Below are positions 10,651 to 30,319 of a DNA stretch of 64,000 bases, one piece after another. The translations under genes and the position numbers were made by a program. The stretch comes from Musa acuminata AAA Group. Its lineage: Eukaryota > Streptophyta > Magnoliopsida > Zingiberales > Musaceae. Where the stretch lies: NCBI RefSeq assembly GCF_036884655.1, contig NC_088342.1, forward strand, positions 9,543,501-9,607,500, read 5' to 3'. The notes beneath the pieces were generated by a model. It was not told where the DNA came from. It saw only the letters and a list, made by a program, of their open reading frames with translations, and searched no databases. The stretch's first letter is position 1. The number at the start of each line of letters is the position of its first letter.

Positions 10651-13600
10651 TGTAGAACTTCCTCTGATATACGACGTATAAATATACTTCTTAACGGGTC
10701 GAATGGATGGACAATCCGGATCCGCTCATTCTTGGATCCGTGGACCCCAACAGTGAATGGTCCCTGACCGTAACGGTTTAACTTCCAAAGGTGAGCCGTG
10801 TGAACTGTCAAGGCGCTTTCAGTTGGCGAGCTTCCCACTCTTCTTTGTCTTTTCCCCCCATTCATCTCGCTCCAAACCCTCGTCCCCTGCTCTTCCCCAA
10901 TGCCGCTCTCGGGTTCCAAGATCACCTCTCGCTCCTCCTCTGTCCCCGCTTATCGGCGAAACCCCCATTTTCACGGCCGCCGCGGTAGATCCAGCACGAG
11001 GAGCGCTCCGGTTGGTGGTTGTCGCAATAGCTCCAGCGAGGGGAGCAATAGCCGAGATCTTCGATCAAGTGATCGAGAAGAAGTTTTCAGACAGTCACGT
11101 TCGTATCTTCCTTATTTTCTTTTCTGTTTTGGTTGCACTGGAGCTTTGTGATCCCGCTTTTGTACTAAAGATTTTAGGGAATCCTCTTTCTTGGATCTTC
11201 AAAAAATTGAGTATCCCTGATTAGAAGAAATAATAGTTGATCGCCTGAGGAAGGATCCTATATTCGTGTAGGCTTATGGTAATATAGTTCTTGATTCCTT
11301 CAGGGTCGGTTGGAGAGCTTCTATATTAATATGATTTCATAGAAGTTCAGATTAAGTTTTATTAATCTGAACAAACAGCCCCTATTAATATGATTTCGTA
11401 GAAGTTTCGATTAGATATGATTAATCTGAACAAATAGCTTCAAAAAGCACATGCCGGTACGAAGCTGTCAGTTAACAAGCAACAAGCAGTGGATTCCGAT
11501 AAGGAGTTCATCTCTGTTCTTTATTTTTAGTGTTAATTGAGAATGGGAAATAAGTATATGTACAGTGGAAAAGAGAGATACAGGAGATGGATGAGAGAGA
11601 CAAGAGGAGTAATAGGGAAAAATGAAGAGATAAAGAGGTACATAGAAGGAAAGTGGATGACAGAGAGAGAAAAAGGGTAGAAGGGGGTATAAAAATTTTT
11701 GCTGAGCTTCTTGCGGAAAAAAAATAGAGGAACTTGTTTGGACGATTGTCACATAAATATAGATTACTATCTCGACTGTCCAAGTAGATTGAAGGTCGAA
11801 TTGATTAATTTTTAAATGGATTTATATAAATGCATGAGTATATGTATATGTGTGTGTTTGTGTGAAAGTGGCTGTATGTGTATGTGTGTCTATGTGCAAG
11901 TGGCCGTATATATTTGTGTATATGATATAGCTAATTTTAGTTGTTGCATGCAGATTAATTTCAGATTTAGTAATTGTGATTGTTTCAGCTATCATCAACG
12001 ATATTACCTTTTCCTGCCTGGGACAGCCAGTGTGAGTAGTCATAATTATTGTTTAGCCATAACTTATTGATTGTAAACTGCCTCAATATATTTTTCTTCA
12101 GTAGACCTTTTTGCTCACCGTACAATTCCATGTATAAGATCACTGTTGGTTATCTTCTTACTGAATCTTTCATTGGAACCAGTTGGAGCATGTGATTTAC
12201 TAGTAAAATAGTGCAGATAACTCCAGCAAGTTACCATGTTCTTTTTCTTTTCTGTGTTGTTTCTACTCATGTTTCTTCAACAGGATGCTTTTTATGTGGT
12301 TTATAAAATGCCTCAACTAAGTTATAGTTGTTTCGACCTTTAAATATGTGGATATGTCTGGCAGAGACCTTGTGTCTCCTGGAACTGAACAATCAACATG
12401 TTGAACAAACAATAAAAACAGCAGTATACCTATAGGAAGGCAAATGATGTCCAATTCCATAAAATTTTCTTCACTATTCTTGCATGATTACATATTTGAC
12501 AATTAATTTTATGACCGTTTCCGTTAATTGTTGCAGCACACTTTTTTCTTGAACTGGAAATCAAGTATCATCCGTGTTTCTATTATACAAACAAATGGAA
12601 CTTCTGGCTTTGAAATATTTGGTTGTGTTGAAAAAGTTGGTCATAAAAGCTGGAAATGTTTGTTGAGTTCAAGCCATTACTTCAGGTATATCAAACTGGA
12701 CTTTCAATAGCATAAATGCCTAGAAACAAAAGCGTTACATGGGATAACATGTTGTAAGCATATTTGACCATGTTGCTGGGTTAATGTGTTGCTGGGGTTT
12801 TGCATTATGCATTCACAAGGACCAACCGTTTTCCATATGTAACAGTGGGCATGAGACAGGCATATAATTGGCATGGACATCGCATAGCCCCTTCGCCATG
12901 GAAGGTATCTTAATGATAAGCGGTCTCATACAAGCTTTACCTTATTTTCTTCAGCTGTGGCGGTAACTTTTCGATGATGTATGGTCACTTGATTTTGGAT
13001 CTCTGCAACCAGGAGGAGACTATTGCACAATTTAGTGTCGTGTTTCTCCTTTCTGCGCTGTGTCCAGAGATTTCCTGTACTAAGGTACTTTATTTGACTG
13101 AGAAGAAGCCTTCATATTTGTTTATTGTTAGCCAATGCTACTTCCTAAATTGCTCCCAGTCGTTCAATGTGTTTTCTTCACCATACTGCTTATTTGAATT
13201 TTCATCTTTGCCCTGTTGCTATTCTCGAGGTCTACTTGAGATCACCATTTTTATGGTGAGCTATCTTTTACTGAGGCTAACACAGATCATTTTGAATTGG
13301 GCTGTTATGTTTTTCATGTCTGCCATGGTAGCTTGTGTTCTGAATGTTTCATAAACTGGAATTCTCTGAAGTGTACTTATTGTTCATTTCATGCAGCTAT
13401 GTGGTGGAAAATCGTCAGAAGGCATAATTATTGGTTCTTTCTTATCTATGTCATAGGCAGCAGTGGTGATTATTATCTCTATTTCAGTATCCGGATATTT
13501 AAGTTCTGGTTTTCAATCTTTGCACCTACTAACTTTGAGGTATTTCCTTATTTTTCTTTTTTTGCGTACCAGGCATTAAAATTTTAAGTGGGAAACAACA

Positions 13601-13900
13601 TCACAAATTCCTACATGGCCAAGTGATAAATGGTGCACTCCGGCAACAGGTTTGGCTTGTGGTCTCTTTTGCTTTCATAGCACGATTCTGCTAATTTTCC
13701 AACGCAAAAGAACCATTATGTCCCGAATTAATTCCCGACTCTTATCACTAGGAGGTGGGAAACCTTGGCAATGTTGGCGGGAAAGATTTGTTTCGTAATT
13801 TGTATCTCATCACCCCAACCACTCTCTTTACGTGGAAGAAGAGTTGGAAACAAATGGGAGAAGGACGGCGCTCTTTGGTCTGGCCCTTCGATTCCGTCCC
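10651..13900. other. Intergenic or possible non-coding transcript region
   Basis: 10780-11150 is GC-rich with an open frame at 10900-11151 rich in Ser and Arg, resembling a 5' UTR or first exon. No continuation was found. 11.4-13.7 kb is AT-rich with a T-rich antisense stretch near 11470-11750 and a TG-rich patch at 11838-11905. Short hydrophobic frames at 12974-13587 match nothing I know. Confidence 0.35.
11323..11440. repeat. Two-copy tandem repeat, about 60 bp
   Basis: TATTAATATGATTTCATAGA, later GATTAATCTGAACAAACAG, is repeated once (11323-11382, 11383-11440) with several substitutions. Confidence 0.8.
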
Positions 13901-14038
13901 ATGGCATCAACGAGCGAGAAGAGCCCCACGGAGCGAAATCCGCCGCCGCCTCCTGCACTCGTCCCACCAATTCGAAACCCTTACTTGGATCTCGTCTCCT
14001 TCTTCTCCCGAAGGCGAAGACGGGACGGACCGTGGTGA
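13901..14038 (+). CDS. Possible small or first-exon ORF, unknown
   Basis: A 45-residue frame starts MASTSEKSPTERNPPPPPA and contains NPYLDLVSFFSRRRRRDG before TGA. It is in a locally GC-rich patch (13830-14090) with polyproline and a basic run, typical of a plant N-terminal exon; a GT donor is possible just before the stop. No downstream exon could be linked. It may be a relic exon or a spurious frame. Confidence 0.25.
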   Translation: MASTSEKSPTERNPPPPPALVPPIRNPYLDLVSFFSRRRRRDGPW

Positions 14039-14802
14039 TGGAAGTCGCGGCGGGAGAAGGGGAAGGAGACTGCCTTCTCTGAAAAATGTTTCGGCAGTTG
14101 TTTCACGAAGTCAGAGCACCAGTTTCAGCCTACATGCGGCAGCCAAGAATCCAAGGTCATTCTGCCTAAAGAGGTTAGACCATGATAGATATAGTTATCC
14201 AAAGAACAATCAGGTTGTACGCTAATAGGCTATCAAACTGTTAAATGTGTCTGTGATCAGGAACACAACGGACCTACAAGACTTCCTTGAAAGGAGAATT
14301 CCTTTCCACGGATATAGTTACCCTGCAGCGCCACCCTCCTGACTGTCTGATTCTGATCCAAGAACTTAACATGGCTTGGTTGAGCTTCGCTACAGGTTTC
14401 TCCATACAAACTATGGTATGCATACTGTGATGAAACGAAATATAAGTTTGGATCACCTGTACGTGAGTGTATTCTCACTCAAATATTTCTCCATCATCAC
14501 CATCTAAAAATTAGTTGCATGTCACTAGACCTTTCTCCATCATAAGTGTTTGATTCAGTATATTTTTTCTGATGATTCTCAAAATTATGTACATGCGAAC
14601 TGTTCTTGAAATTCCAGTTTTCTGACTGTGGACATTTGACCACAATTAATGCATTTCAGAATGGATTTGTGACTATCGTTTGATATTGATTTGCCTGGTA
14701 AGGTTGTTTTTGCTGACAGGAAAGAATGGCTTCAACAATGTACAGTCATTTAATGACTGGTATTGTTTTTTAATAAATAAGTATATTGTTTTTAATTAAT
14801 AA

Positions 14803-14862
14803 GATGGAATAACTTGGTTAGAGCATGTGGCTGTTAACCACAAGGTCGGAAGTTCTCAAGCC
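14803..14862 (+). pseudogene. Decayed tRNA-Asn copy
   Basis: It retains TTAGAGCATGTGGC, then TGTTAACCACAAGGTCGGA, matching the anticodon arm of the array tRNA. The D arm has lost several bases, the T loop has an insertion and the 3' acceptor strand is gone. Confidence 0.85.
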
Positions 14863-14869
14863 TTTGTCT

Positions 14870-16960
14870 CTTGGTAGATTAGAACTTTGCTTTTTGAAAC
14901 AAAATATGAACTTTTTGTCTCAGCAAACGATATTATGAGTTTTTTGCCTTATCAAAGATCACCTGGTGATCATTTGATAGATTGATAGTTTTTGTTGAAT
15001 TTTTTTGTCCTAATGAAGATGACCTAATTGTCAAAGGAAAGATTCACAGCCTTATAATCTCTTGAAGGATTAGAACTTTAGCCCTCCTTCCAGCATTTAA
15101 TTCTTTATTTTTTTTCTACTTCCATAATACTGTTATTTTATTGAATCCTGTGTCTTAACAAATAGTGTTTATTTTTTATACACATTTGTTGTATGGTAGA
15201 TTGATACTTTTTGTTGAATTCTTTGTCCTAACAAAGATCACCTAACTAGATGGATTTTGATAGCCTTGTTTCTTGATGGACTAGAACTTTGGTTTTTTTG
15301 AACAAAATATGAACTTTTTGTCTCAGCAAACAATATAGAAATTTAGCCCTCCTTCTAGCGTTTAATTCTTTATTTTTTTTACTTCCATAATACTGTTATT
15401 TTATCAAATCCTGTGTCTTAACAGATAGCGTTTATTTTTTATACACAGTTGTTGTATGGTAGATTGATACTTTTTGTTGAATTCTTTGTCCTACCAAAGA
15501 TCATCTAACTGGATGGATTGGTAGTCTTGTCTCTTGATGGATTAGAACTTTACTTCTTTTGAACAAAATATGAACTTTTTGTCTCGGCAAATAATATTAT
15601 GAGTTTTCTATCTTACCAAAGATCACCTGGTGATCATTTGATAGATTGATAGTTTTTGTTGAATTTTTTTGTCCTAATGAAGATGACCTAATTATCAAAA
15701 GAAAGATTGACAGCCTTATAATCTCTTGAAGGATTAGAACTTTACTTCTTTACACCGAATATGAATCCTTTTTCTTAGCAAACAATAGTATTACTTATTT
15801 GACTGATCAAAGGTCACCTAGTAATCATTTGATACACTGATTTTTTTTTGTTAAATTCTAAATTCTAATTTACAAAAGATCACCTAGTTGTCTTATGATG
15901 AAATTTTTGGTTGAATACATTTCCAAATAATCTTTGATGGATAAAAAACTTTACCTTATAAAGCCAAACATCATCTAATTGTGAACTGTCATAGTAGCTT
16001 TATACTCATCGAATTTGAATTTTCTACAAAGAACATCCCTCCTGCTCTTTGTTTCTAGATAGAATATCTAATCTTGCATTTAGTTTCTTTTATCTTACGT
16101 GAAACTATAATTTTCCTTGTATATAACTATCCTTGTATATTATAATTTTCCATGTTTGATTCTCTTTTAGTGACTCAACGTGGCCTTCCCCATATCCAAA
16201 TCTCTTTGGAAGGAACTTGGTGAAGGCCAATGGTGCAGCTCTGTAGCACCACTAGAATGGGTACGACTCTTAACTCATCTGTACTTTGCTAAATATTTCT
16301 CCTTATAAACAATACAGTTTTCAATCCATCACCTGGTAATCATTTGGTACATTTTTTTGTTGAATTTTATCTTACCAAAGATGCCTAGTTGTCTTATGAT
16401 GCGCTCAATTTTGTTTGTTGAATACATTTCCAAATCACCTTTGATTGATACAAACTTTACTTTGTGAAGCCAAACACCATCCAATTGTGAATTGACATAA
16501 TAGATTTATACTGGTTGAATTAGTTTTGTTGGTAATTTTCTACAACGAACATCCTCCTTCCAGTGTTCTTTGTTTCTTTTCCTTTTTTGACATGAAACTT
16601 TTAAAACCAACATCTAGCCTTGCATTTGGTTTCTTTTACGTTCCCTGAAACTACAACTTTCCTTGCATATAATTATCCTTCCGCTCAATACTCGTGACAT
16701 CATGTTTGATTCAGTTCAGGTGTCTTAGCTTCCATATCCAAATCTCTTTGGAAGAAACTAGAATGTTTTTTAATTTTACAAATCAAAACATTACCTAGTT
16801 CTCTACTAGTATATTAGACCGAGTGATTGTAGAGTTAGTTTTATTTCTATTTTTCACTAATTGCATTATCCACGCTTAAATTAATTACTTGTCTAGTAGT
16901 TTTTATTTGAAGTTTTCTTTTTTATTTTTCCACTAATCACTTATACACATTTTAACTAAC
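14870..16960. repeat. Degenerate repeat field with tRNA-Asn 3'-half remnants
   Basis: AT-rich DNA in which phrases recur in diverged form: 'AAAGATCACCTGGTGATCAT' (14957, 15616), 'GATTGATAGTTTTTGTTGAA' (about 14982, 15644) and 'GAACAAAATATGAACTTTTT' (about 15300, 15558). At about 15068-15090 and 15344-15362 the phrase TAGCCCTCCTTCTAGCG, or a variant of it, appears. That is the T-stem and acceptor 3' half of tRNA-Asn without the 5' half. No protein gene is seen. Confidence 0.65.
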
Positions 16961-16962
16961 GA

Positions 16963-16979
16963 GCTGGAATAGCTCAGTT

Positions 16980-17012
<33 letters not shown>

Positions 17013-17036
17013 GAGGTTCAAGCCCTCCTTCTAGCG
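16963..17036 (+). tRNA. tRNA-Asn(GTT) copy 1
   Basis: Full cloverleaf: acceptor GCTGGAA/TTCTAGC, D stem GCTC/GAGC, anticodon loop CTGTTAA, T stem GGAGG/CCTCC, discriminator G. Consensus sequence; flanking spacer is more divergent than in copies 5-33. Confidence 0.97.
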
Positions 17037-17154
17037 TGATAAGTATTAAATTTGGTTTTATTTATATTTACATTAATTATTAGTATAAAAGTTTTTATTT
17101 TTTAGTTTTTTTCTTCTTTTTTCACTAATTACTTATACACATTTTAACAAGCGA

Positions 17155-17229
17155 GCTGGAATAGCTCAGTTGGTTAGAGCGTGTGGCTGTTTAACCACAA
17201 GGTCGGAGGTTCAAGCCCTCCTTCTAGCG
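17155..17229 (+). tRNA. tRNA-Asn copy 2, enlarged anticodon loop
   Basis: 75 nt. One extra T gives an 8-nt anticodon loop, CTGTTTAA, between intact TGTGG/CCACA stems. The rest is consensus. Probably non-functional or altered in decoding. Confidence 0.9.
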
Positions 17230-17348
17230 TGATAAGTATTAAATTTTATTTTATTTATATTTACACTAATTACTAGTATAAAAGTTTTTATTTTTTAGTT
17301 TTCTTTTTTATTTTTCCACTAATCACTTATATAAACTTTAACCAATGA

Positions 17349-17422
17349 GCTGGAATAGCTCAGTTGGTTAGAGCGTGTGGCTGTTAACCACAAGGGCGGA
17401 TGTTCAAACCCTCCTTCTAGCG
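17349..17422 (+). tRNA. tRNA-Asn(GTT) copy 3, T-arm variant
   Basis: Variable region reads AGGGC and the T arm reads GGATG-TTCAAAC-CCTCC, which puts a T/C mismatch in the T stem and alters the B box. Anticodon arm is intact. Confidence 0.85.
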
Positions 17423-17544
17423 TGATGAGTATTAAATTTAGTTTTATTTTTATGTTTTACATTAATTATTAGTATAAAAGTTTTTATTTTTTAAGTTTTA
17501 TTTTTATTTTTCCACTAATTACTTATACACATTTTAACTAACGA

Positions 17545-17563
17545 GCTGGAATAGCTCAGTTGT

Positions 17564-17594
<31 letters not shown>

Positions 17595-17618
17595 GAGGTT
17601 TAAGCCCTCTTTCTAGCG
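17545..17618 (+). tRNA. tRNA-Asn(GTT) copy 4, D- and T-loop variant
   Basis: The D-loop GG becomes GT (TTGTTTAGAGC) and the T loop is TTTAAGC, losing the invariant C of TTC and weakening the B box; the T stem ends CCTCT. Likely a decayed gene. Confidence 0.85.
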
Positions 17619-17731
17619 TGAAATTTATTAGATTTAGTTTTATTTACATTAATTACTTGTACAAAAGTTTTTATTTTTTAGTTTTCCTTTTTATTTTTCC
17701 ACTAATGACTTATACACACTTTAACTAACGA

Positions 17732-17748
17732 GCTGGAATAGCTCAGTT

Positions 17749-17781
<33 letters not shown>

Positions 17782-17805
17782 GAGGTTCAAGCCCTCCTTC
17801 TAGCG
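17732..17805 (+). tRNA. tRNA-Asn(GTT) copy 5
   Basis: Consensus 74-nt sequence. Preceded by the TAACTAACGA-type leader. Confidence 0.97.
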
Positions 17806-17924
17806 TTAAAAGTATTAAATTTGATTTTATTTATATTTACATTAATTACTAGTATAAAAGTTTTTATTTTTTAGTTTTCTTTTTGATTTTTCCACGAATT
17901 ACTTATACACACTTTAATCAACGA

Positions 17925-17941
17925 GCTGGAATAGCTCAGTT

Positions 17942-17974
<33 letters not shown>

Positions 17975-17998
17975 GAGGTTCAAGCCCTCCTTCTAGCG
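17925..17998 (+). tRNA. tRNA-Asn(GTT) copy 6
   Basis: Consensus 74-nt sequence; first copy with the homogenised AATCAACGA leader. Confidence 0.97.
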
Positions 17999-18117
17999 TT
18001 AAAAGTATTAAATTTGATTTTATTTATATTTACATTAATTACTAGTATAAAAGTTTTTATTTTTTAGTTTTCTTTTTGATTTTTCCACAAATTACTTATA
18101 CACACTTTAATCAACGA

Positions 18118-18134
18118 GCTGGAATAGCTCAGTT

Positions 18135-18167
<33 letters not shown>

Positions 18168-18191
18168 GAGGTTCAAGCCCTCCTTCTAGCG
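18118..18191 (+). tRNA. tRNA-Asn(GTT) copy 7
   Basis: Consensus sequence; upstream spacer has the CCACAAATTAC variant, shared with copies 17 and 22. Confidence 0.97.
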
Positions 18192-18310
18192 TTAAAAGTA
18201 TTAAATTTGATTTTATTTATATTTACATTAATTACTAGTATAAAAGTTTTTATTTTTTAGTTTTCTTTTTGATTTTTCCACGAATTACTTATACACACTT
18301 TAATCAACGA

Positions 18311-18327
18311 GCTGGAATAGCTCAGTT

Positions 18328-18360
<33 letters not shown>

Positions 18361-18384
18361 GAGGTTCAAGCCCTCCTTCTAGCG
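18311..18384 (+). tRNA. tRNA-Asn(GTT) copy 8
   Basis: Consensus sequence. Confidence 0.97.
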
Positions 18385-18503
18385 TTAAAAGTATTAAATT
18401 TGATTTTATTTATATTTACATTAATTACTAGTATAAAAGTTTTTATTTTTTAGTTTTCTTTTTGATTTTTCCACGAATTACTTATACACACTTTAATCAA
18501 CGA

Positions 18504-18520
18504 GCTGGAATAGCTCAGTT

Positions 18521-18553
<33 letters not shown>

Positions 18554-18577
18554 GAGGTTCAAGCCCTCCTTCTAGCG
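18504..18577 (+). tRNA. tRNA-Asn(GTT) copy 9
   Basis: Consensus sequence; downstream spacer has TATTAGATTTG and TTTCCATT, shared with copy 33. Confidence 0.97.
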
Positions 18578-18696
18578 TTAAAAGTATTAGATTTGATTTT
18601 ATTTATATTTCCATTAATTACTAGTATAAAAGTTTTTATTTTTTAGTTTTCTTTTTGATTTTTCCACGAATTACTTATACACACTTTAATCAACGA

Positions 18697-18713
18697 GCTG
18701 GAATAGCTCAGTT

Positions 18714-18746
<33 letters not shown>

Positions 18747-18770
18747 GAGGTTCAAGCCCTCCTTCTAGCG
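18697..18770 (+). tRNA. tRNA-Asn(GTT) copy 10
   Basis: Consensus sequence. Confidence 0.97.
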
Positions 18771-18889
18771 TTAAAAGTATTAAATTTGATTTTATTTATA
18801 TTTACATTAATTACTAGTATAAAAGTTTTTATTTTTTAGTTTTCTTTTTGATTTTTCCACGAATTACTTATACACACTTTAATCAACGA

Positions 18890-18906
18890 GCTGGAATAGC
18901 TCAGTT

Positions 18907-18939
<33 letters not shown>

Positions 18940-18963
18940 GAGGTTCAAGCCCTCCTTCTAGCG
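18890..18963 (+). tRNA. tRNA-Asn(GTT) copy 11
   Basis: Consensus sequence. Confidence 0.97.
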
Positions 18964-19082
18964 TTAAAAGTATTAAATTTGATTTTATTTATATTTACAT
19001 TAATTACTAGTATAAAAGTTTTTATTTTTTAGTTTTCTTTTTGATTTTTCCACGAATTACTTATACACACTTTAATCAACGA

Positions 19083-19099
19083 GCTGGAATAGCTCAGTT

Positions 19100-19132
<33 letters not shown>

Positions 19133-19156
19133 GAGGTTCAAGCCCTCCTTCTAGCG
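19083..19156 (+). tRNA. tRNA-Asn(GTT) copy 12
   Basis: Consensus sequence. Confidence 0.97.
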
Positions 19157-19275
19157 TTAAAAGTATTAAATTTGATTTTATTTATATTTACATTAATTAC
19201 TAGTATAAAAGTTTTTATTTTTTAGTTTTCTTTTTGATTTTTCCACGAATTACTTATACACACTTTAATCAACGA

Positions 19276-19292
19276 GCTGGAATAGCTCAGTT

Positions 19293-19325
<33 letters not shown>

Positions 19326-19349
19326 GAGGTTCAAGCCCTCCTTCTAGCG
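19276..19349 (+). tRNA. tRNA-Asn(GTT) copy 13
   Basis: Consensus sequence. Confidence 0.97.
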
Positions 19350-19468
19350 TTAAAAGTATTAAATTTGATTTTATTTATATTTACATTAATTACTAGTATA
19401 AAAGTTTTTATTTTTTAGTTTTCTTTTTGATTTTTCCACGAATTACTTATACACACTTTAATCAACGA

Positions 19469-19485
19469 GCTGGAATAGCTCAGTT

Positions 19486-19518
<33 letters not shown>

Positions 19519-19542
19519 GAGGTTCAAGCCCTCCTTCTAGCG
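19469..19542 (+). tRNA. tRNA-Asn(GTT) copy 14
   Basis: Consensus sequence. Confidence 0.97.
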
Positions 19543-19661
19543 TTAAAAGTATTAAATTTGATTTTATTTATATTTACATTAATTACTAGTATAAAAGTTT
19601 TTATTTTTTAGTTTTCTTTTTGATTTTTCCACGAATTACTTATACACACTTTAATCAACGA

Positions 19662-19678
19662 GCTGGAATAGCTCAGTT

Positions 19679-19711
<33 letters not shown>

Positions 19712-19735
19712 GAGGTTCAAGCCCTCCTTCTAGCG
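19662..19735 (+). tRNA. tRNA-Asn(GTT) copy 15
   Basis: Consensus sequence. Confidence 0.97.
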
Positions 19736-19854
19736 TTAAAAGTATTAAATTTGATTTTATTTATATTTACATTAATTACTAGTATAAAAGTTTTTATTTT
19801 TTAGTTTTCTTTTTGATTTTTCCACGAATTACTTATACACACTTTAATCAACGA

Positions 19855-19871
19855 GCTGGAATAGCTCAGTT

Positions 19872-19904
<33 letters not shown>

Positions 19905-19928
19905 GAGGTTCAAGCCCTCCTTCTAGCG
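19855..19928 (+). tRNA. tRNA-Asn(GTT) copy 16
   Basis: Consensus sequence. Confidence 0.97.
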
Positions 19929-20047
19929 TTAAAAGTATTAAATTTGATTTTATTTATATTTACATTAATTACTAGTATAAAAGTTTTTATTTTTTAGTTT
20001 TCTTTTTGATTTTTCCACAAATTACTTATACACACTTTAATCAACGA

Positions 20048-20064
20048 GCTGGAATAGCTCAGTT

Positions 20065-20097
<33 letters not shown>

Positions 20098-20121
20098 GAG
20101 GTTCAAGCCCTCCTTCTAGCG
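20048..20121 (+). tRNA. tRNA-Asn(GTT) copy 17
   Basis: Consensus sequence; CCACAAATTAC spacer variant upstream. Confidence 0.97.
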
Positions 20122-20240
20122 TTAAAAGTATTAAATTTGATTTTATTTATATTTACATTAATTACTAGTATAAAAGTTTTTATTTTTTAGTTTTCTTTTT
20201 GATTTTTCCACGAATTACTTATACACACTTTAATCAACGA

Positions 20241-20257
20241 GCTGGAATAGCTCAGTT

Positions 20258-20290
<33 letters not shown>

Positions 20291-20314
20291 GAGGTTCAAG
20301 CCCTCCTTCTAGCG
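20241..20314 (+). tRNA. tRNA-Asn(GTT) copy 18
   Basis: Consensus sequence. Confidence 0.97.
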
Positions 20315-20433
20315 TTAAAAGTATTAAATTTGATTTTATTTATATTTACATTAATTACTAGTATAAAAGTTTTTATTTTTTAGTTTTCTTTTTGATTTTT
20401 CCACGAATTACTTATACACACTTTAATCAACGA

Positions 20434-20450
20434 GCTGGAATAGCTCAGTT

Positions 20451-20483
<33 letters not shown>

Positions 20484-20507
20484 GAGGTTTAAGCCCTCTT
20501 TCTAGCG
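20434..20507 (+). tRNA. tRNA-Asn(GTT) copy 19, recombinant
   Basis: The 5' half and leader match the consensus copies, while the T arm (TTTAAGC, CCTCT) and following spacer match copy 4. The weakened B box suggests low activity. Confidence 0.9.
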
Positions 20508-20620
20508 TGAAATTTATTAGATTTAGTTTTATTTACATTAATTACTTGTACAAAAGTTTTTATTTTTTAGTTTTCCTTTTTATTTTTCCACTAATGACTT
20601 ATACACACTTTAACTAACGA

Positions 20621-20637
20621 GCTGGAATAGCTCAGTT

Positions 20638-20670
<33 letters not shown>

Positions 20671-20694
20671 GAGGTTCAAGCCCTCCTTCTAGCG
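20621..20694 (+). tRNA. tRNA-Asn(GTT) copy 20
   Basis: Consensus tRNA; leader is the TAACTAACGA type, as for copy 5. Confidence 0.97.
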
Positions 20695-20813
20695 TTAAAA
20701 GTATTAAATTTGATTTTATTTATATTTACATTAATTACTAGTATAAAAGTTTTTATTTTTTAGTTTTCTTTTTGATTTTTCCACGAATTACTTATACACA
20801 CTTTAATCAACGA

Positions 20814-20830
20814 GCTGGAATAGCTCAGTT

Positions 20831-20863
<33 letters not shown>

Positions 20864-20887
20864 GAGGTTCAAGCCCTCCTTCTAGCG
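20814..20887 (+). tRNA. tRNA-Asn(GTT) copy 21
   Basis: Consensus sequence. Confidence 0.97.
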
Positions 20888-21006
20888 TTAAAAGTATTAA
20901 ATTTGATTTTATTTATATTTACATTAATTACTAGTATAAAAGTTTTTATTTTTTAGTTTTCTTTTTGATTTTTCCACAAATTACTTATACACACTTTAAT
21001 CAACGA

Positions 21007-21023
21007 GCTGGAATAGCTCAGTT

Positions 21024-21056
<33 letters not shown>

Positions 21057-21080
21057 GAGGTTCAAGCCCTCCTTCTAGCG
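21007..21080 (+). tRNA. tRNA-Asn(GTT) copy 22
   Basis: Consensus sequence; CCACAAATTAC spacer variant upstream, as for copy 7. Confidence 0.97.
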
Positions 21081-21199
21081 TTAAAAGTATTAAATTTGAT
21101 TTTATTTATATTTACATTAATTACTAGTATAAAAGTTTTTATTTTTTAGTTTTCTTTTTGATTTTTCCACGAATTACTTATACACACTTTAATCAACGA

Positions 21200-21216
21200 G
21201 CTGGAATAGCTCAGTT

Positions 21217-21249
<33 letters not shown>

Positions 21250-21273
21250 GAGGTTCAAGCCCTCCTTCTAGCG
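21200..21273 (+). tRNA. tRNA-Asn(GTT) copy 23
   Basis: Consensus sequence. Confidence 0.97.
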
Positions 21274-21392
21274 TTAAAAGTATTAAATTTGATTTTATTT
21301 ATATTTACATTAATTACTAGTATAAAAGTTTTTATTTTTTAGTTTTCTTTTTGATTTTTCCACGAATTACTTATACACACTTTAATCAACGA

Positions 21393-21409
21393 GCTGGAAT
21401 AGCTCAGTT

Positions 21410-21442
<33 letters not shown>

Positions 21443-21466
21443 GAGGTTCAAGCCCTCCTTCTAGCG
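21393..21466 (+). tRNA. tRNA-Asn(GTT) copy 24
   Basis: Consensus sequence. Confidence 0.97.
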
Positions 21467-21585
21467 TTAAAAGTATTAAATTTGATTTTATTTATATTTA
21501 CATTAATTACTAGTATAAAAGTTTTTATTTTTTAGTTTTCTTTTTGATTTTTCCACGAATTACTTATACACACTTTAATCAACGA

Positions 21586-21602
21586 GCTGGAATAGCTCAG
21601 TT

Positions 21603-21635
<33 letters not shown>

Positions 21636-21659
21636 GAGGTTCAAGCCCTCCTTCTAGCG
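21586..21659 (+). tRNA. tRNA-Asn(GTT) copy 25
   Basis: Consensus sequence. Confidence 0.97.
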
Positions 21660-21778
21660 TTAAAAGTATTAAATTTGATTTTATTTATATTTACATTAAT
21701 TACTAGTATAAAAGTTTTTATTTTTTAGTTTTCTTTTTGATTTTTCCACGAATTACTTATACACACTTTAATCAACGA

Positions 21779-21795
21779 GCTGGAATAGCTCAGTT

Positions 21796-21828
<33 letters not shown>

Positions 21829-21852
21829 GAGGTTCAAGCCCTCCTTCTAGCG
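21779..21852 (+). tRNA. tRNA-Asn(GTT) copy 26
   Basis: Consensus sequence. Confidence 0.97.
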
Positions 21853-21971
21853 TTAAAAGTATTAAATTTGATTTTATTTATATTTACATTAATTACTAGT
21901 ATAAAAGTTTTTATTTTTTAGTTTTCTTTTTGATTTTTCCACGAATTACTTATACACACTTTAATCAACGA

Positions 21972-21988
21972 GCTGGAATAGCTCAGTT

Positions 21989-22021
<33 letters not shown>

Positions 22022-22045
22022 GAGGTTCAAGCCCTCCTTCTAGCG
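21972..22045 (+). tRNA. tRNA-Asn(GTT) copy 27
   Basis: Consensus sequence. Confidence 0.97.
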
Positions 22046-22164
22046 TTAAAAGTATTAAATTTGATTTTATTTATATTTACATTAATTACTAGTATAAAAG
22101 TTTTTATTTTTTAGTTTTCTTTTTGATTTTTCCACGAATTACTTATACACACTTTAATCAACGA

Positions 22165-22181
22165 GCTGGAATAGCTCAGTT

Positions 22182-22214
<33 letters not shown>

Positions 22215-22238
22215 GAGGTTCAAGCCCTCCTTCTAGCG
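22165..22238 (+). tRNA. tRNA-Asn(GTT) copy 28
   Basis: Consensus sequence. Confidence 0.97.
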
Positions 22239-22357
22239 TTAAAAGTATTAAATTTGATTTTATTTATATTTACATTAATTACTAGTATAAAAGTTTTTAT
22301 TTTTTAGTTTTCTTTTTGATTTTTCCACGAATTACTTATACACACTTTAATCAACGA

Positions 22358-22374
22358 GCTGGAATAGCTCAGTT

Positions 22375-22407
<33 letters not shown>

Positions 22408-22431
22408 GAGGTTCAAGCCCTCCTTCTAGCG
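22358..22431 (+). tRNA. tRNA-Asn(GTT) copy 29
   Basis: Consensus sequence. Confidence 0.97.
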
Positions 22432-22550
22432 TTAAAAGTATTAAATTTGATTTTATTTATATTTACATTAATTACTAGTATAAAAGTTTTTATTTTTTAG
22501 TTTTCTTTTTGATTTTTCCACGAATTACTTATACACACTTTAATCAACGA

Positions 22551-22567
22551 GCTGGAATAGCTCAGTT

Positions 22568-22600
<33 letters not shown>

Positions 22601-22624
22601 GAGGTTCAAGCCCTCCTTCTAGCG
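22551..22624 (+). tRNA. tRNA-Asn(GTT) copy 30
   Basis: Consensus sequence. Confidence 0.97.
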
Positions 22625-22743
22625 TTAAAAGTATTAAATTTGATTTTATTTATATTTACATTAATTACTAGTATAAAAGTTTTTATTTTTTAGTTTTCTT
22701 TTTGATTTTTCCACGAATTACTTATACACACTTTAATCAACGA

Positions 22744-22760
22744 GCTGGAATAGCTCAGTT

Positions 22761-22793
<33 letters not shown>

Positions 22794-22817
22794 GAGGTTC
22801 AAGCCCTCCTTCTAGCG
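22744..22817 (+). tRNA. tRNA-Asn(GTT) copy 31
   Basis: Consensus sequence. Confidence 0.97.
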
Positions 22818-22936
22818 TTAAAAGTATTAAATTTGATTTTATTTATATTTACATTAATTACTAGTATAAAAGTTTTTATTTTTTAGTTTTCTTTTTGATT
22901 TTTCCACGAATTACTTATACACACTTTAATCAACGA

Positions 22937-22953
22937 GCTGGAATAGCTCTGTT

Positions 22954-22986
<33 letters not shown>

Positions 22987-23010
22987 GAGGTTCAAGCCCT
23001 CCTTCTAGCG
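22937..23010 (+). tRNA. tRNA-Asn(GTT) copy 32, D-loop variant
   Basis: The conserved A14 is T (GCTCTGTTGG), which breaks the usual U8-A14 tertiary pair and changes the A box. All stems are intact. Confidence 0.92.
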
Positions 23011-23129
23011 TTAAAAGTATTAAATTTGATTTTATTTATATTTACATTAATTACTAGTATAAAAGTTTTTATTTTTTAGTTTTCTTTTTGATTTTTCCAC
23101 GAATTACTTATACACACTTTAATCAACGA

Positions 23130-23146
23130 GCTGGAATAGCTCAGTT

Positions 23147-23179
<33 letters not shown>

Positions 23180-23203
23180 GAGGTTCAAGCCCTCCTTCTA
23201 GCG
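23130..23203 (+). tRNA. tRNA-Asn(GTT) copy 33
   Basis: Consensus sequence; last intact copy. Its downstream spacer matches that of copy 9, then degenerates after about 45 bp. Confidence 0.97.
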
Positions 23204-23322
23204 TTAAAAGTATTAGATTTGATTTTATTTATATTTCCATTAATTACTTACACAATCTGTTTTTAATTTTGAAGTTTTAATTTTTATTTTTTCACTAATT
23301 ACTTATACACACTTAAGAAAAT

Positions 23323-23398
23323 AATTGAGAATTGTGTTGTTGATTACAGCATATAACTAATAAACATAAGGTTGGAGTTTCAAGTCGTCATTCTAACG
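23323..23398 (+). pseudogene. Strongly decayed tRNA-Asn unit
   Basis: It aligns over its whole length with the array tRNA but with many substitutions: GATTACAGC for the D stem side, CTAATAAACATAAGGTTGGA for the anticodon side, TTTCAAG then TTCTAACG at the 3' end. The preceding spacer also matches the array spacer, so this is an old unit at the array edge. Confidence 0.8.
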
Positions 23399-23739: not shown

Positions 23740-24243
23740 CGAGTGAACGGGCATTAACGTCGACTCGACGTCCCCAACGTCACCCCCTCAGCCAGCGGCT
23801 CCCTCGCCCATACCCTGCACGTTCACCCAAACGCAGAGGGCGACGATCGATGCCGCCCATACCCTGTGACAGGATGGTCCGCCACGCGACCCTAATGGCA
23901 ATGTCAAATCCAGCCAGAGGCACGACCCTGTTCTGACAGGCAGGAACATCAGGTAATATCAGATCCAAACTATAAAGAGTCGGGGGCCCTAAAGGTCAAG
24001 GTAAGGGGGAACTCTTCAGAAAAAAGTCCTCTTCTCGTTCACTAATTGGACCGTCGGAGGGGTCGGGCCAGAAAGGCGGTCCGACCTTTGTGCAGGTACA
24101 CGACGATCGCATTGCCAGGGGACTGTCACGAGCGCTCACCCAAAAGACGTCAAGATGCTCTACCCGTGATCTTCGGCATCCGGACCCCTGAACCGAGCCG
24201 TGTCGTCCCGAGATTACGGCTTAAACGGGTGCAGACCGTATCA
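23740..24243 (+). repeat. 5' LTR (truncated)
   Basis: It matches 28672-29214 of the 3' LTR, without a 39-bp stretch present there at about 29058-29096. It ends ...TATCA where the 3' copy has CATCA. Confidence 0.93.
23971..23977 (+). promoter_or_regulatory. LTR TATA box
   Basis: TATAAAG in a GC-rich context inside the 5' LTR; the equivalent in the 3' LTR is at 28903-28909. It is the probable Pol II promoter of the element. Confidence 0.65.
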
Positions 24244-24245
24244 GA

Positions 24246-27200
24246 ATGGCGCTAGAAGGAGGGCCCCGAATGCCGAACGATCCTCACGCCGACCCCGTCG
24301 GACCCGTCACCCACGGAGTAGGAGGAATGCCGACGTCAACGCCAGATCGTTATTGGCGCCTGTTCAACGACTTAGGGATGCCACCCCCATTACCCGCGGT
24401 CGACCCCCCGGCCGTACCGCCCGAGGCGTTTTTCGCCCTCGCTAAGCAAGTGCAGGGAATGGTGGAGATAATGCAGACCGTTGTCCCACTTATTCCCGAA
24501 AGCAGGCGACTGACAGACGCCTCCGCCGACCCAGCCCATCAAAGGCCGGGCACGGGACAGGATGCAACCAGCGAAACCCGAGACGGGGCCGTCCGCCACG
24601 AGGGTTCGCCCACACGCGTTTCTCCTGCACCCTCCCGAGCCGCACGACGCCGCCCCGAGCCTGACACCGTATTGTCCGACTCGGCGGACAGCTTCATTAA
24701 GGTACAATTCTCCCAGGTCAATCGCCGCCTGGACGAGTTCCGACGCGAGCTTCAAAGGTCGCGGGATGAATCAAACGAGGGCACCTGGGGGGGGGGGATC
24801 CCCTTTTGTTCAGGAAATACAAGAAAAACCTGTCCACCTCAACTTTAGGGTGCCGGCCTTAGAAACATACGACGGCGGCTCCGACCCAGCGGAGCATGTC
24901 GCCGCGTTCAGAACTCAGATGGCCCTTTACGGCACGTCCGATGCGCTAATGTGTCGTACGTTCCCGACCACCTTCAGAGGACCAGCACACGCATGGTTCA
25001 GCCGGCTGCGCCAATCCTCAATCGCATCTTTTGACCAGTTCGCCAAGGAGTTCGAACAAAACTTCCTCACCAGCGCGCGGCCTCGGCCTTCCATAACCGC
25101 CCTGCTGGCACTGTCGCAGCACGAAGAGGAAACGCTCGCACAGTTTGTGACACGCTTCGCCGCGGAGATCCGCGGGTATTCGGACACTCACCCCTCTTTG
25201 ATCATGCAGGCGTTCCTGACGGGGCTGAAACCCTTGAGGTTCTTCTGGTCACTAATTGAGAAGCTGCCCGCCACTGTCCCTGAGATGCTCCACCGGGCCA
25301 ACCAATACGTCGCCGGCGAAGCGTTGGCAGCAGGAAGACGCACGGTCGGGAAGAAGTCGCAGACCGAGCAACCCCAAGCCGCCGCCTCGTCGGTCGACCC
25401 CCAACCCCGTCGGAGGCTCGACCATCCCGAGCAGCGGCTCCCGAGGCCTCCGCCCCTCCCACTCAACACGCCTCGTACCGAGATCTTCCTCCAGATCAGG
25501 GAGAAAGGTCTTTTGCGGCCCCCCAATCCCATGAGAGCTACTTACAAAAATCGGTTGAAATACTGCAGGTTCCACCGAGACCATGGCCATGACACAGAAG
25601 ACTGCCACGACCTCCAGAACCAGATTGAGGAGCTGATCAGAAGAGGGTACCTCGGCCGTTCTCTCAAGGAACCCCGGGAAGCAACCCCGCGTCCCCGGAT
25701 GCCCGTGGAAAGGCAGGTTGACGTCATCATCGGGGGACCGGCGGCAGGCGGTAGCAGCTCAAGCGCAAGGAAATCCTATGCCCGGAGCTCGGTCGAGAAA
25801 CGCCCCCGACCCAAGCTAGAACCCGAAATCTCTTTTGGGGCCGAGGAGGGGGAAAGGTCCCATCATGACGACGCTCTGGTGATCTCTATCCAGATCGCTA
25901 ACGCTCGGGTAAAGCGAGTAATGGTCGACACTGGGAGCTCCGCCGACGTTCTGTACCTCGACGCCTTCAAAAGGCTCGGCTTGCCCACCGAGGACCTCAT
26001 TCCCATGAGCTCGGCACTCACGGGATTCACCGGAGACTCAATCTCCCCGCTCGGCACCACCACACTCCCTGTCACCATTGGGGAGGAACCAAGGACCAAG
26101 ACAATAATGACTACGTTCATGGTGGTCAACCTGCCCTCGGCCTACAACGTCATCCTCGGACGCCCAACGCTCAACAAGCTAAAAGCGGTGGTCTCAACCT
26201 ACCACCGAGCCATCAAGTTTCCCACCTCGGCGGGGGTCGGAGAGTCACGAAGCGACCCAGGCGAGTCGAGAAGGTGCTACCTCACCGCGGTCTCCCTCCC
26301 GAAGAGAGCATGCCCCCATGTCCCAGACCCTCGAGAAGAGGCCGCCACATCAACGCACCTTGAACCACCCGAGCAGCTTACCGAGGTACCAATAAAGGGA
26401 GACTGGCCCGGTCAGACTGTGAAAATCGGCGCAGCCCAGCCCGAAGAAAACCAGCTCCAGCTCGTCGAGTTCCTGAAGGCAAACGCCGATGTATTCGCAT
26501 GGTCGCCCAAGGAAATGCCAGGGATCGATCGGACGGTAGCCGAACACCAACTTAACATCAATCCCGAGGCCAGGCCGGTGAAGCAAAGACCACGGAGGTT
26601 CGCCCCCGACCGGCAGAAGGCTATCAGCGAAGAAGTCGACCGATTGACAGAGGCTGGATTCATTTCCGAAGTAAAGTACCCCCAGTGGCTGTCAAATGTA
26701 GTCCTCGTTAAAAAACCAAATGGAAGCTGGCGGATGTGCGTTGACTACACAAATCTCAACCGGGCGTGTGCCAAAGACTACTACCCGCTCCCGAGAATAG
26801 ATCAGCTAGTCGATGCCACCTCGGGTTACGAACTCCTTACCTTCTTGGACGCATACTCGGGCTACAACCAAATCCGCATGGCACCAGCGGACCAAGAGAA
26901 CACCGCCTTCATCACCGACAGAGGAATATATTGCTACAAGGTGATGCCGTTCGGCTTAAAGAACGCTGGGGCAACCTACCAGAGGATGGTCGACAAGCTG
27001 TTCAGACGCCAAATTGGCAGGAACATGGAAATATATGTGGACGACATGATCGTAAAGAGCAGAACCGCGGAGGCGCACCTGGCCGACTTGGCGGAAACCT
27101 TTCAGACCCTCAGGCGATTCAATATGCGTTTGAACCCCGCAAAGTGCGTCTTCGGGGTTAGCTCGGGGAGATTCCTCGGCTTCGTCATCCACCAGAGGGG

Positions 27201-28560
27201 AATAGACGCCAACCCAGAAAAGGTACGGGCCATAACCCGGATGCACTCACCCCGCTCCGTCAAAGAAGTACAGTGTCTCACGAGGAAACTGGCGGCGCTC
27301 AGTAGATTCATATCCAGGTCGGGCGACAGATGCCTGCCCTTCTTCCAGGCCCTGCAACAAGTCAACAACTTCACCTGGACACCCGAGTGCGAGGAAGCTT
27401 TTGAAGACCTAAAGGCGTACCTTACCCGCCTACCCCGACTCGCTTCCCCTGAGCCAGGGGAAACCCTGGGACTTTACTTAGTGACGTCAGCACGGGCAGT
27501 CAACTCGGTACTGGTCCGAGAAGCACCGCCGAAGCAGCAGCCCATCTATTACGTTAGCCACGTCCTCGCCGGGGCCGAGGCGCGGTACCCCCCTATCGAA
27601 AGGCTGGCTCTGGCGTTGGTAAAGACGGCGCGAAAGCTACGCCCATACTTCCAGTCCTACACAATCAAAGTCATCACCGACCAGCCGCTGCATAAAATCC
27701 TATCCAAGTTTGACGTGTCGGGTCGAATGTTACGATGGTCGGTCGAGCTCAGCGAGTTCGACATCCAATACTCTCCTCGGAACGCCATCAAAGCCCAGGT
27801 ACTGGCCGACTTCATCTCTGAACTAACGCCCGAGGATTGTGCAGAGGGACGGAAGGATACCGACCGTGCGTGGACCCTGCACGTTGACGGCTCCGCCATC
27901 ACCGGTGCGGCCGGAGTCGGCCTCATCCTTAAAAGCCCTACTGGAGAAACCTACGAAAGGTCCATCCGACTGTAATTCCAAGCCACCAACAACGAAGCCG
28001 AGTACGAGGCGCTACTACATGGCCTACGCCTCGCCTTGGAGATGCAGGTAGACAACCTCGAGGTATTCAACGACTCTCAACTAGTGACGGGACACGTGAA
28101 TGGGAGCTACGAGGCCAGGGACCCCACGATGGTATCATACCTGGCGGAAACACAGCGGCTCGCCCGCCTCTTCAGCCGGTTCTCAATCACACAAGTGCCC
28201 CGGGCCCAAAACGCATCCGCCGATGCTCTGGCAAAAGCAGCCTTCGCACGGGGTTTAGAAAAAGCCTCCGTGACCGAGCCCATAACGGCCCCGACCATAC
28301 CATCCTGCGGCGTCGTCGAGACCCGAACCCCGCCGAACTGGATGGAGGAAATACTCCGCTTCAAGACAGATGGGACGGAGCCCGACAACCCGGCGGCAGC
28401 AAGACAACTAAGGCGAACGCAGGCCTGGTATAGCTTGGTCGGCGGGAAGCTGTACCGCAGAGGTTTCTCACAGCCCCTCTTGCTCTGCCTCGCACCCCCC
28501 GAGGCCCACACCATCCTTGCCGAGCTTCACAAGGGAGTCACCATGAAGTCAACGGGGATA
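24246..28560 (+). pseudogene. Broken gag-pol of the Tat-type Gypsy element
   Basis: Gag begins in the frame with ATG at 24246 (overlapping the PBS) or 24270 and runs to an 11-G run at 24787-24797, after which the frame changes. The downstream frame is open to a TAA at 27973-27975. Domains in order: Gag (about 24830-25360, AHAWFSRL, FDQFAKEFEQNF); a Cys/His knuckle-like CRFHRDHGHDTEDC near 25563; aspartic protease (VDTGSSADVL, 25924 on); reverse transcriptase (FLDAYSGYNQ; YVDD at 27034-27045); RNase H (about 27440-27820); and the second RNase H (HVDGSA near 27882, then NNEAEYEALLHGL after the stop). Beyond about 28540 only the first part of the integrase zinc-binding region remains (GGKLYRRG ... 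LAELHKGV); the catalytic core is absent. It is not autonomous. Confidence 0.92.
24247..24264 (+). promoter_or_regulatory. Primer-binding site complementary to tRNA-Asn(GTT)
   Basis: TGGCGCTAGAAGGAGGGC lies 3 nt after the 5' LTR. It is the exact reverse complement of the 3' end of the array tRNA plus the added CCA, with 18 matching positions before divergence. It would prime minus-strand cDNA synthesis from tRNA-Asn. Confidence 0.93.
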
Positions 28561-28612
28561 CGGACCATGACGCCAGCCGTCCCATGGGAGGACAATCGAA
28601 GTGACTCCACTC

Positions 28613-28618
28613 AGGGGG
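28613..28618 (+). other. Short polypurine tract
   Basis: AGGGGG directly before TGATG, the start of the 3' LTR. It is the expected primer site for plus-strand synthesis and fixes the LTR border. Confidence 0.65.
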
Positions 28619-29214
28619 TGATGGCGACGCGACATGCCGTGACACCCTCCGCGCGTGGGCCGCACCCTGCCCGAGTGAACGGGCATTAACGTCGACCCGA
28701 CGTCCCCAACGTCACCCCCTCAGCCAGTGGCTCCCTCGCCCATACCTTGCACGTTCACCCAAACGCAGAGGGCGACGATCGATGCCGCCCATACCCTGCG
28801 ACAGGATGGTCCGCCACGCGACCCTAATGGCAATGTCAAATCCAGCCAGAGGCACGACCCTGTTCTGACAGGCAAGAACATCAGGTAATATCAGATCCAA
28901 ACTATAAAGAGTCGGGGGCCCTAAAGGTCAAGGTAAGGGGGAACTCTTCAGAAAAAAGTCCTCTTCTCGTCCACTAATTGGACCGTCGGAGGGGTCGAGC
29001 CAGAAAGGCGGTCCGACCTTTGTGCAGGTACACGACGACCGCATTGCCAGGGGACTGCAGCTAGCCATCTCAGAATACCACGCTCTAATCGGGTTGTCAC
29101 GAGCGCTCACCCAAAAGACGTCAAGAGGCTCTACCCGTGATCTTCGGCATCCGGACCCCTGAACCGAGCCGTGTCGTCCCGAGATTACGGCTTAAACGGG
29201 TGCAGACCGCATCA
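28619..29214 (+). repeat. 3' LTR (complete, 596 bp)
   Basis: It begins TGATG and ends CATCA, a perfect 5-bp terminal inverted repeat with the canonical TG..CA ends. It contains the TATA box and a 39-bp block lost from the 5' LTR. Confidence 0.9.
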
Positions 29215-30249
29215 CAAGTTTTCTTTTAAATTTCTAAAATCGAATCATCAACTAGTTCTTGATTGGTATGTTAGACTGATAGTTGAATTAGTTTTATTTC
29301 TATTTTTCCATCAATCACTTATATTTGATCTTGGGCTTCTGAATATTTATTGTCCTCACTAGTTCATTTTTGTTGTACATTAAACTGACAGGTATTGTAG
29401 AATTAGTTTTCACTCTATTTTTTCGCCAATCATATTTGATCTTGATCTTATGAATTTTTATTGTCCTCCTTCTGTCACAAGGATTTTTTTTGTATGTTAG
29501 ACTGATAGTTGTTGTAGAATTATTTTTTTTTTAATTTCACCAATAGCTTATATTTGATCTTAAGCTTCTGAATTTTTATTGTCCTCGGTAGTTCAAAATT
29601 TAAAATTTGAAATCATATACTATATTTTTTAAGAACTCAGCATATATCTTATTCTATATTAACTTCAGCTTTTTGTGCCCTGCTTTCCTTGTTTCATCAT
29701 CATGTATGCCTGAACATCACGAACTTTAGCTATGCCAAATCAGAATGGTAAAGAAGACTAACACAGAATGCCAAATCTGAAAATGCTTTAGCAGCCATTT
29801 AACATTTACTTTAGAACAAACAGCTTGTAAGCTAACAGGTAATCGAACTGTTGAATGTGTCTGTGATTAGTAGGAACAGATAAGGGTACTGGCAGATACT
29901 AGCATGGCAGCTCCTTGTGCTTGTCTAGGGACAATAATGTTATTTGCGCCTGCTGTAATGCTTCCTTGGAAGAAATGAATTCCCTGCTGCACAACACTAT
30001 AACACCAAATTTGATTTGATTCAAACAACTCAAGAACGAGGCTGATAGCAATCTGATATCCACCTCTCTTTGCAAGAACTCGGGGGGTGGTCGAGGCTGC
30101 AGCTCTGTTTTACCACCATAATAGGTATGTCTGTTAAAGATCTCTCCTGATCAACTATACAGTTTGCTGGATGATTTGTGAATCTCAGTTATTGTGTTTC
30201 AGTCACCAATAGTACTGTCCATATAAGATTGAAATGCCACTAATTAAGA
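29215..30249. repeat. Diverged array-flank repeats, right of the retroelement
   Basis: Continuation of the 23.4-23.7 kb repeats (GGTATGTTAGACTGATAG, 'TTTGATCTTGAGCTTCTGAA', ATTGTCCTC). From about 29823 to 30180 it resembles the left flank of the array: GAACTGTTGAATGTGTCTGT here against 14,230-14,255, and GCAGCTCTGTTTTACCACCA here against about 16,230-16,250. Confidence 0.65.
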
Positions 30250-30319
30250 GCTGGAATATCTCAGTTAAAGTGCATGATTGTAAACCCTAAGATCGGAGGT
30301 TTAAACCCTCTTTCTGGCA
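30250..30319 (+). pseudogene. Decayed tRNA-Asn copy, right flank
   Basis: GCTGGAATATCTCAGTTAAA, then GATCGGAGGTTTAAACCCTC and TTTCTGGCA clearly match the array tRNA. The D loop is shortened and the anticodon arm has lost pairing. Confidence 0.88.

Follow-up and report, generated by a model that had tools for sequence, protein, structure and literature searches.

Why does a single chromosome of the banana Musa acuminata (AAA Group) carry 33 copies of one transfer RNA (tRNA) gene in a row, how did they arise, and are they used? The genes lie in a 64,000-nucleotide stretch of contig NC_088342.1 (C16:9543501-9607500, here called the window) and form a tandem tRNA-Asn(GTT) array that is real and far beyond chance. 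From comparison with two further contigs of the same assembly (C5 and C27; 1.53 Gb and 1060 contigs in total), we consider it probable that the array stands at an old locus with turnover by unequal exchange or gene conversion, and that the additional copies are redundant, most of them silent or only weakly used.

Structure of the array

ARAGORN predicted 33 tRNA genes in the window at 16963-23203, all on the + strand. Thirty-two were called tRNA-Asn(gtt), with the GTT anticodon in a 7-nucleotide loop; the exception, u02 (17155-17229), has one extra T in its anticodon loop (8 nucleotides), is read with a four-base anticodon and is most likely a damaged copy. All 33 genes fit the cloverleaf model RF00005 of Rfam at 61.3-71.7 bits (cut-off 29), and 28 of them share the top score of 71.7 bits, which rules out a pseudogene array for most copies; the initial annotation had named pseudogene-like scores in a covariance-model search as the outcome that would speak against it, and most copies do not score in that way. 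Tandem Repeats Finder (TRF) reported a single array with a period of 193 bp, 33.4 copies and a score of 12001. ARAGORN, Rfam and TRF agree with the earlier count of 33 same-strand tRNA-Asn(GTT) genes on a 193-bp unit: tRNA bodies are identical in 28 of the genes and whole units (tRNA plus 3′ spacer, 187-196 bp long) in 22. With 33 tRNA genes (tDNAs) per 6.2 kb on one strand, the density lies above the at least 3 tDNAs per kb that define a head-to-tail array in PMC11700998. The array sits in chromosome-scale nuclear sequence with plant protein genes adjoining, which would speak against an organellar origin.

The number 33 is an assembly count and not a read-based one. Runs of identical units, such as the 22 found here, are where assemblers fail, and the number could have been inflated in this way. 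We regard this as quite unlikely: variant units (u06, u09, u16, u19, u21 and u32) are dispersed within the core, the window is free of undetermined bases (N), and the matching loci on C27 and C5 carry independent units.

Along the array, a homogenised core is enclosed by diverged edges (Table 1). The differences that u19, within the core, has in common with u04, at the 5′ edge, imply that one unit was transferred or copied in its entirety. Duplication of a single 15-unit block is not claimed: u04/u19 and u06/u21 lie 15 units apart, but u09/u24 does not fit the pattern, and three random markers reproduce such spacing in 11% of draws.

Table 1. Features of the tRNA-Asn locus and its surroundings (window positions).
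Feature	Position	Strand	Remarks
tRNA-Asn(GTT) array, 33 genes	16963..23203	+	unit 193 bp; ARAGORN, TRF, Rfam
5′ edge genes u01-u04	16963..17618	+	diverged units; u02 with 8-nucleotide anticodon loop, u03 and u04 with T-arm changes
Homogenised core u05-u32, except u19	17732..23010	+	mean pairwise difference 0.0022 (27 units)
u19	20434..20620	+	187-bp unit; 22 differences in common with u04
3′ edge, u33	23130..23320	+	intact body, downstream spacer diverged
Partial tRNA-Asn relic	14805..14862	+	
tRNA-Asn 3′ remnant	15080..15094	+	opens older repeat unit 15077-15336
tRNA-Asn 3′ remnant	15345..15360	+	opens older repeat unit 15342-15597
Decayed tRNA-Asn relic	23339..23398	+	3′ of array
Ty3/gypsy-type element	23740..29217	+	absent at matching place on C27 and C5
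Primer-binding site of this element	24247..24264	+	complement of tRNA-Asn 3′ end plus CCA, 18/18
Decayed tRNA-Asn gene	30250..30319	+	31.2 bits (Rfam)

Judged by these remnants, the locus is old and has gained and lost genes repeatedly. Taken together, the diverged edges, the relics on both sides and the displaced u19 suggest that unequal exchange or conversion took place repeatedly. The two older repeat units within 15077-15597 are about 260 bp each and 91% alike, each opening with its tRNA-Asn 3′ remnant; on C5, this stretch has more than one match.

Three versions of one locus

A search of the assembly with the unit found matching loci on C27 (within 6103700-6105000) and C5 (within 9968500-9970900), both of them chromosome-scale contigs. 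Matching tRNA genes recur eleven contig numbers apart (5/16/27, 2/13/24, 7/18/29, 6/17/28 and 11/22/33), a pattern that rests on 63 scored of 76542 candidates in a search for tRNAs of all kinds. We infer a three-haplotype, triploid-type assembly, in which C5, C16 and C27 are one chromosome in three versions. A published Cavendish assembly is described with 33 pseudo-chromosomes and a total of 1.42 Gb (PMC10493638).

Array genes above the Rfam cut-off number 33 on C16, 7 on C27 and 11 on C5, the latter two counts each including one gene pieced together across two sequence stretches. The majority body sequence is found in 28 of 33, 5 of 7 and 5 of 11 genes, respectively. C5 has one further tRNA wreck near 9968770 (79% DNA match, seen by eye), and C27 has a relic of 38.9 bits (Rfam; local positions 3569-3642 of the retrieved C27 stretch), which is taken as the counterpart of the window relic at 30250.

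The flanks of the three versions (window 9433-14700) differ by only 1.2-1.5% (C16-C27, 61/5263; C16-C5, 77/5206; C27-C5, 62/5211). Compared with the mean pairwise difference of 0.0022 in the C16 core, the units on C27 differ from one another by 4-11%, and the first of them (B01) from the others by 14-19%; because this is many times the haplotype difference, the unit duplications predate the haplotypes. The C16 core unit occurs on neither partner, its nearest relatives being B06 and B07 on C27 (6% away), and C5 has its own near-identical set (C04-C07). A tree of 50 of the 51 units (25 distinct rows; C01, whose upstream part aligns poorly, was omitted) placed the C16 core in a C16-only group (support 99/97), paired the first C16 unit with the first C27 unit (100/100) and grouped seven of the eight C5 rows with modest support (80/74).

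On the plain reading, the amplified units would differ from homologue to homologue, and the edges would be what was left behind. Copy-number variation and a homogenised core, by which plant tandem tDNA arrays are recognised, are both present. An old tRNA-Asn locus would turn over through unequal exchange and gene conversion, and we infer this mechanism of exchange from the array; on C16 one 193-bp unit would recently have been multiplied to give 33 genes, whereas C27 has seven diverse genes and C5 eleven, with a separate small core. The initial annotation had set three functions side by side, namely bulk supply of Asn tRNA, a TFIIIC-bound chromatin boundary and silenced selfish amplification. 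Comparison of the three haplotypes speaks for redundant genes that were amplified recently and in a haplotype-specific way; it yields nothing for a boundary.

A boundary would mean that many TFIIIC-bound B boxes insulate the neighbouring genes. The B-box pattern is present in 30 of the 33 genes, and a human tRNA tandem repeat has been implicated as a boundary (PMC4041453). Neither copy number nor unit sequence is conserved between the homologues, however, and the human case depends on a CTCF site. CTCF is not known from plants, and we consider a boundary role very unlikely.

Redundancy and use of the copies

The tRNA encoded by the array is also encoded elsewhere. Nine of the 14 tRNA-Asn genes at the dispersed loci retrieved have exactly the body of the array. 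A genome search gave 129 candidates, and the 40 of them that were scored were all exact, with 20 belonging to the C16 array, 5 to the C5 array and 15 to other places; tRNA-Asn genes occupy at least 37 places outside the arrays in the assembly. As array and dispersed genes share their body, the array adds dose and not a new tRNA, and a new isodecoder is ruled out. A search of viral and prokaryote contigs with one exact pattern gave no match and is uninformative on plants.

The intact units look like complete RNA polymerase III (Pol III) genes. By motif pattern, TATA at -21 and T4 at +20 were found for all 33 genes, the A box in 31, the B box in 30 and CAA at most 12 bases upstream in 29, so that the earlier attribution of all signals to each copy holds for TATA and T4 but overstates the other three. 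Besides u02, four copies have altered bodies: a T-stem change in u03 (17349), loss of the T-loop C, a B-box base, in u04 (17545) and u19 (20434), and a change of A14 in u32 (22937). From what is generally known of tRNAs, the changes in these five copies would be expected to weaken function.

We rank redundant copies, mostly silent or weakly used, as the likeliest functional state, and a tissue-specific role in dose next. Claims that clustered Arabidopsis tDNAs are silent have been made earlier (PMC10701932). Methylation and predominant silence count among the traits of tandem tDNA arrays in that plant. Several observations weigh against such silence and against the history proposed above. The Arabidopsis study that mentions these claims reports that 11 of 13 unique tRNA-Cys transcripts gave a signal in RNA-seq (PMC10701932). 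In the 33 array bodies, each of the 99 CpG sites is intact, a weak sign against long methylation, and in the unit tree 11 of 22 inner branches lack resolution. Finally, bodies vary less than spacers on two of the homologues, which hints at use. Variable sites amount to 7/74 in the body vs 31/119 in the spacer on C16 (without W01, p=0.005) and to 3/74 vs 26/119 on C27 (without B01, p=0.0007); on C5 the numbers are 16/74 vs 20/119 (10 units, without C01, p=0.45). The contrast on C16 and C27 is stronger when edge units are retained, and all 50 units together give 23/74 vs 64/119 (p=0.003). Bodies thus appear protected on C16 and C27 but not on C5; these contrasts are indications only, because the sites share ancestry and the spacers are AT-rich.

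Lower variation of the bodies on C16 and C27 would also be expected if the array were a working dose booster that provides extra Asn tRNA, maybe in limited tissues, as described for the Arabidopsis Ser/Tyr cluster in the root cap (PMC12308677). The 28 intact bodies and the Pol III signals in most copies are in line with this. Yet C27 has just 7 genes and C5 just 11, of which 6 are altered; the C5 bodies are without constraint, and dispersed genes encode the identical tRNA. We treat a dose booster as a possible but unlikely explanation.

A gypsy-type element beside the expanded allele

The long terminal repeat (LTR) element of the Ty3/gypsy type listed in Table 1 starts 536 bases past the last C16 tRNA gene. 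Its LTRs (23740-24246 and 28672-29217) have 11 mismatches in 507 positions (about 2.2%), which exceeds the difference between the haplotype flanks. It contains gag, reverse transcriptase (RT) and ribonuclease H (RNase H) domains, and a second RNase H-like match downstream of RT and RNase H (RVT_3, 28036-28689, E 8.5e-6) suggests that it may belong to the Tat lineage; integrase had no match in the frames searched. About 110 bases of C5 are missing at the element site, so this was not a clean insertion.

C27 and C5 carry LTR-type insertions of their own past the last tRNA gene: one of 517 bp on C27 (C27:6105542-6106058, AGACC direct repeats seen by eye), 546 bases from that gene, and one of 1491 bp on C5 (C5:9970888-9972378, GTTGG direct repeats seen by eye), 138 bases from it. 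Three different insertions within 138-546 bases 3′ of the array end make an insertion hot spot possible.

The primer-binding site of the gypsy-type element matches tRNA-Asn at 18 of 18 positions, and the element stands beside the expanded allele only, which could link the array to gypsy-type elements primed by tRNA-Asn. This is one case, however, and the match may be a coincidence, because tRNA-Asn primer sites occur in about 2% of the plant LTR elements surveyed in PMC6317226; moreover, the other LTR-type inserts adjoin small arrays, too. Among the explanations of the array, we give such a conflict the least credence. It is scarcely more probable that array and retroelements act on each other and that their conflict shapes gene dose, with 3′ tRNA fragments that could block the primer-binding site, as has been described in mouse cells (PMC8215267).

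Comparison with known tRNA gene arrays

Tandem tRNA arrays were rightly said to be known in plants: 28 tRNA-Ile genes on maize chromosome 2, 25-27 tRNA-Pro genes on Arabidopsis chromosome 1 and Tyr/Ser runs in Arabidopsis are reported in PMC11700998. The Ile and Pro arrays likewise consist of monotypic tandem nuclear tRNA genes in similar number, differing from the banana array in isotype. That survey also gives Musa balbisiana the highest share of clustered tDNAs (20%). In another survey, of 39 plant species, 410 clusters of identical tandem tRNA genes cover all 20 amino acids, which already implies tRNA-Asn tandems of some size; its clusters reflect recent tandem duplication, as in banana, and reach at most 26 genes where these are identical (species Cpu, a bryophyte) and up to 110 where they are not (PMC12652284). 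The view of the locus as a monotypic, nuclear plant tRNA-Asn array stands, whereas its description as non-standard holds only in part, as arrays of similar size have been published (PMC11700998, PMC12652284). No title or abstract in the literature searched names a plant tRNA-Asn array, although supplementary Musa tables may contain one.

Other systems share single properties. The Arabidopsis Ser-Tyr-Tyr cluster also has a core of identical copies and variable flanks with pseudogenes, but its unit holds three genes, it lies at constitutive heterochromatin and its expression has been studied (PMC12308677). The Arabidopsis tRNA-Cys cluster shows whole-unit copy-number differences between genomes and a 5′ relic, in four to six units, each about 0.4 kb long (PMC10701932). 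The tRNA-bearing human repeat at 1q23.3 varies from 9 to 43 units per allele, but its unit is 7.3 kb long and binds CTCF (PMC4041453). In Entamoeba, tRNA genes also lie in tandem units, but nearly all of them are arrayed, with at most five per unit and short tandem repeats in between (PMC2652664). In size, the C16 array alone is about equal to the GUU set of an average plant genome, given 3972 GUU genes across 128 plants (about 31 per genome; M. acuminata has 710 tRNA genes as we read the table of PMC7678280).

The kind of array is already known; the unusual part is the three-allele view that reveals haplotype-specific amplification. The three versions of one chromosome carry the array at three stages: a small and diverse one, a modest one that has a core of its own, and a strongly expanded one. 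With all three in one assembly, the tempo of tRNA gene amplification and its mechanism become open to direct tests. Because leaders and trailers differ, the alleles can be distinguished in RNA data in spite of the same mature tRNA. The locus also raises the question of how a plant tolerates an approximately fivefold allelic dose difference of one tRNA gene.

Genomic setting

The protein encoded at 6318-7991 of the window matches a Musa banksii protein at 100% identity and two proteins of other M. acuminata subspecies at 99%. Neighbours include an armadillo-repeat gene, a frame with a MatE domain (10060-10767) and one with an aminotransferase domain (35814-36713). On contigs C1, C15 and C23 of the same genome, tRNA-Cys genes form close pairs with a spacing of about 190-210 bp. 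At the point that matches window position 31354, C27 contains about 14 kb of extra DNA relative to the window (C27:6108655-6122665).

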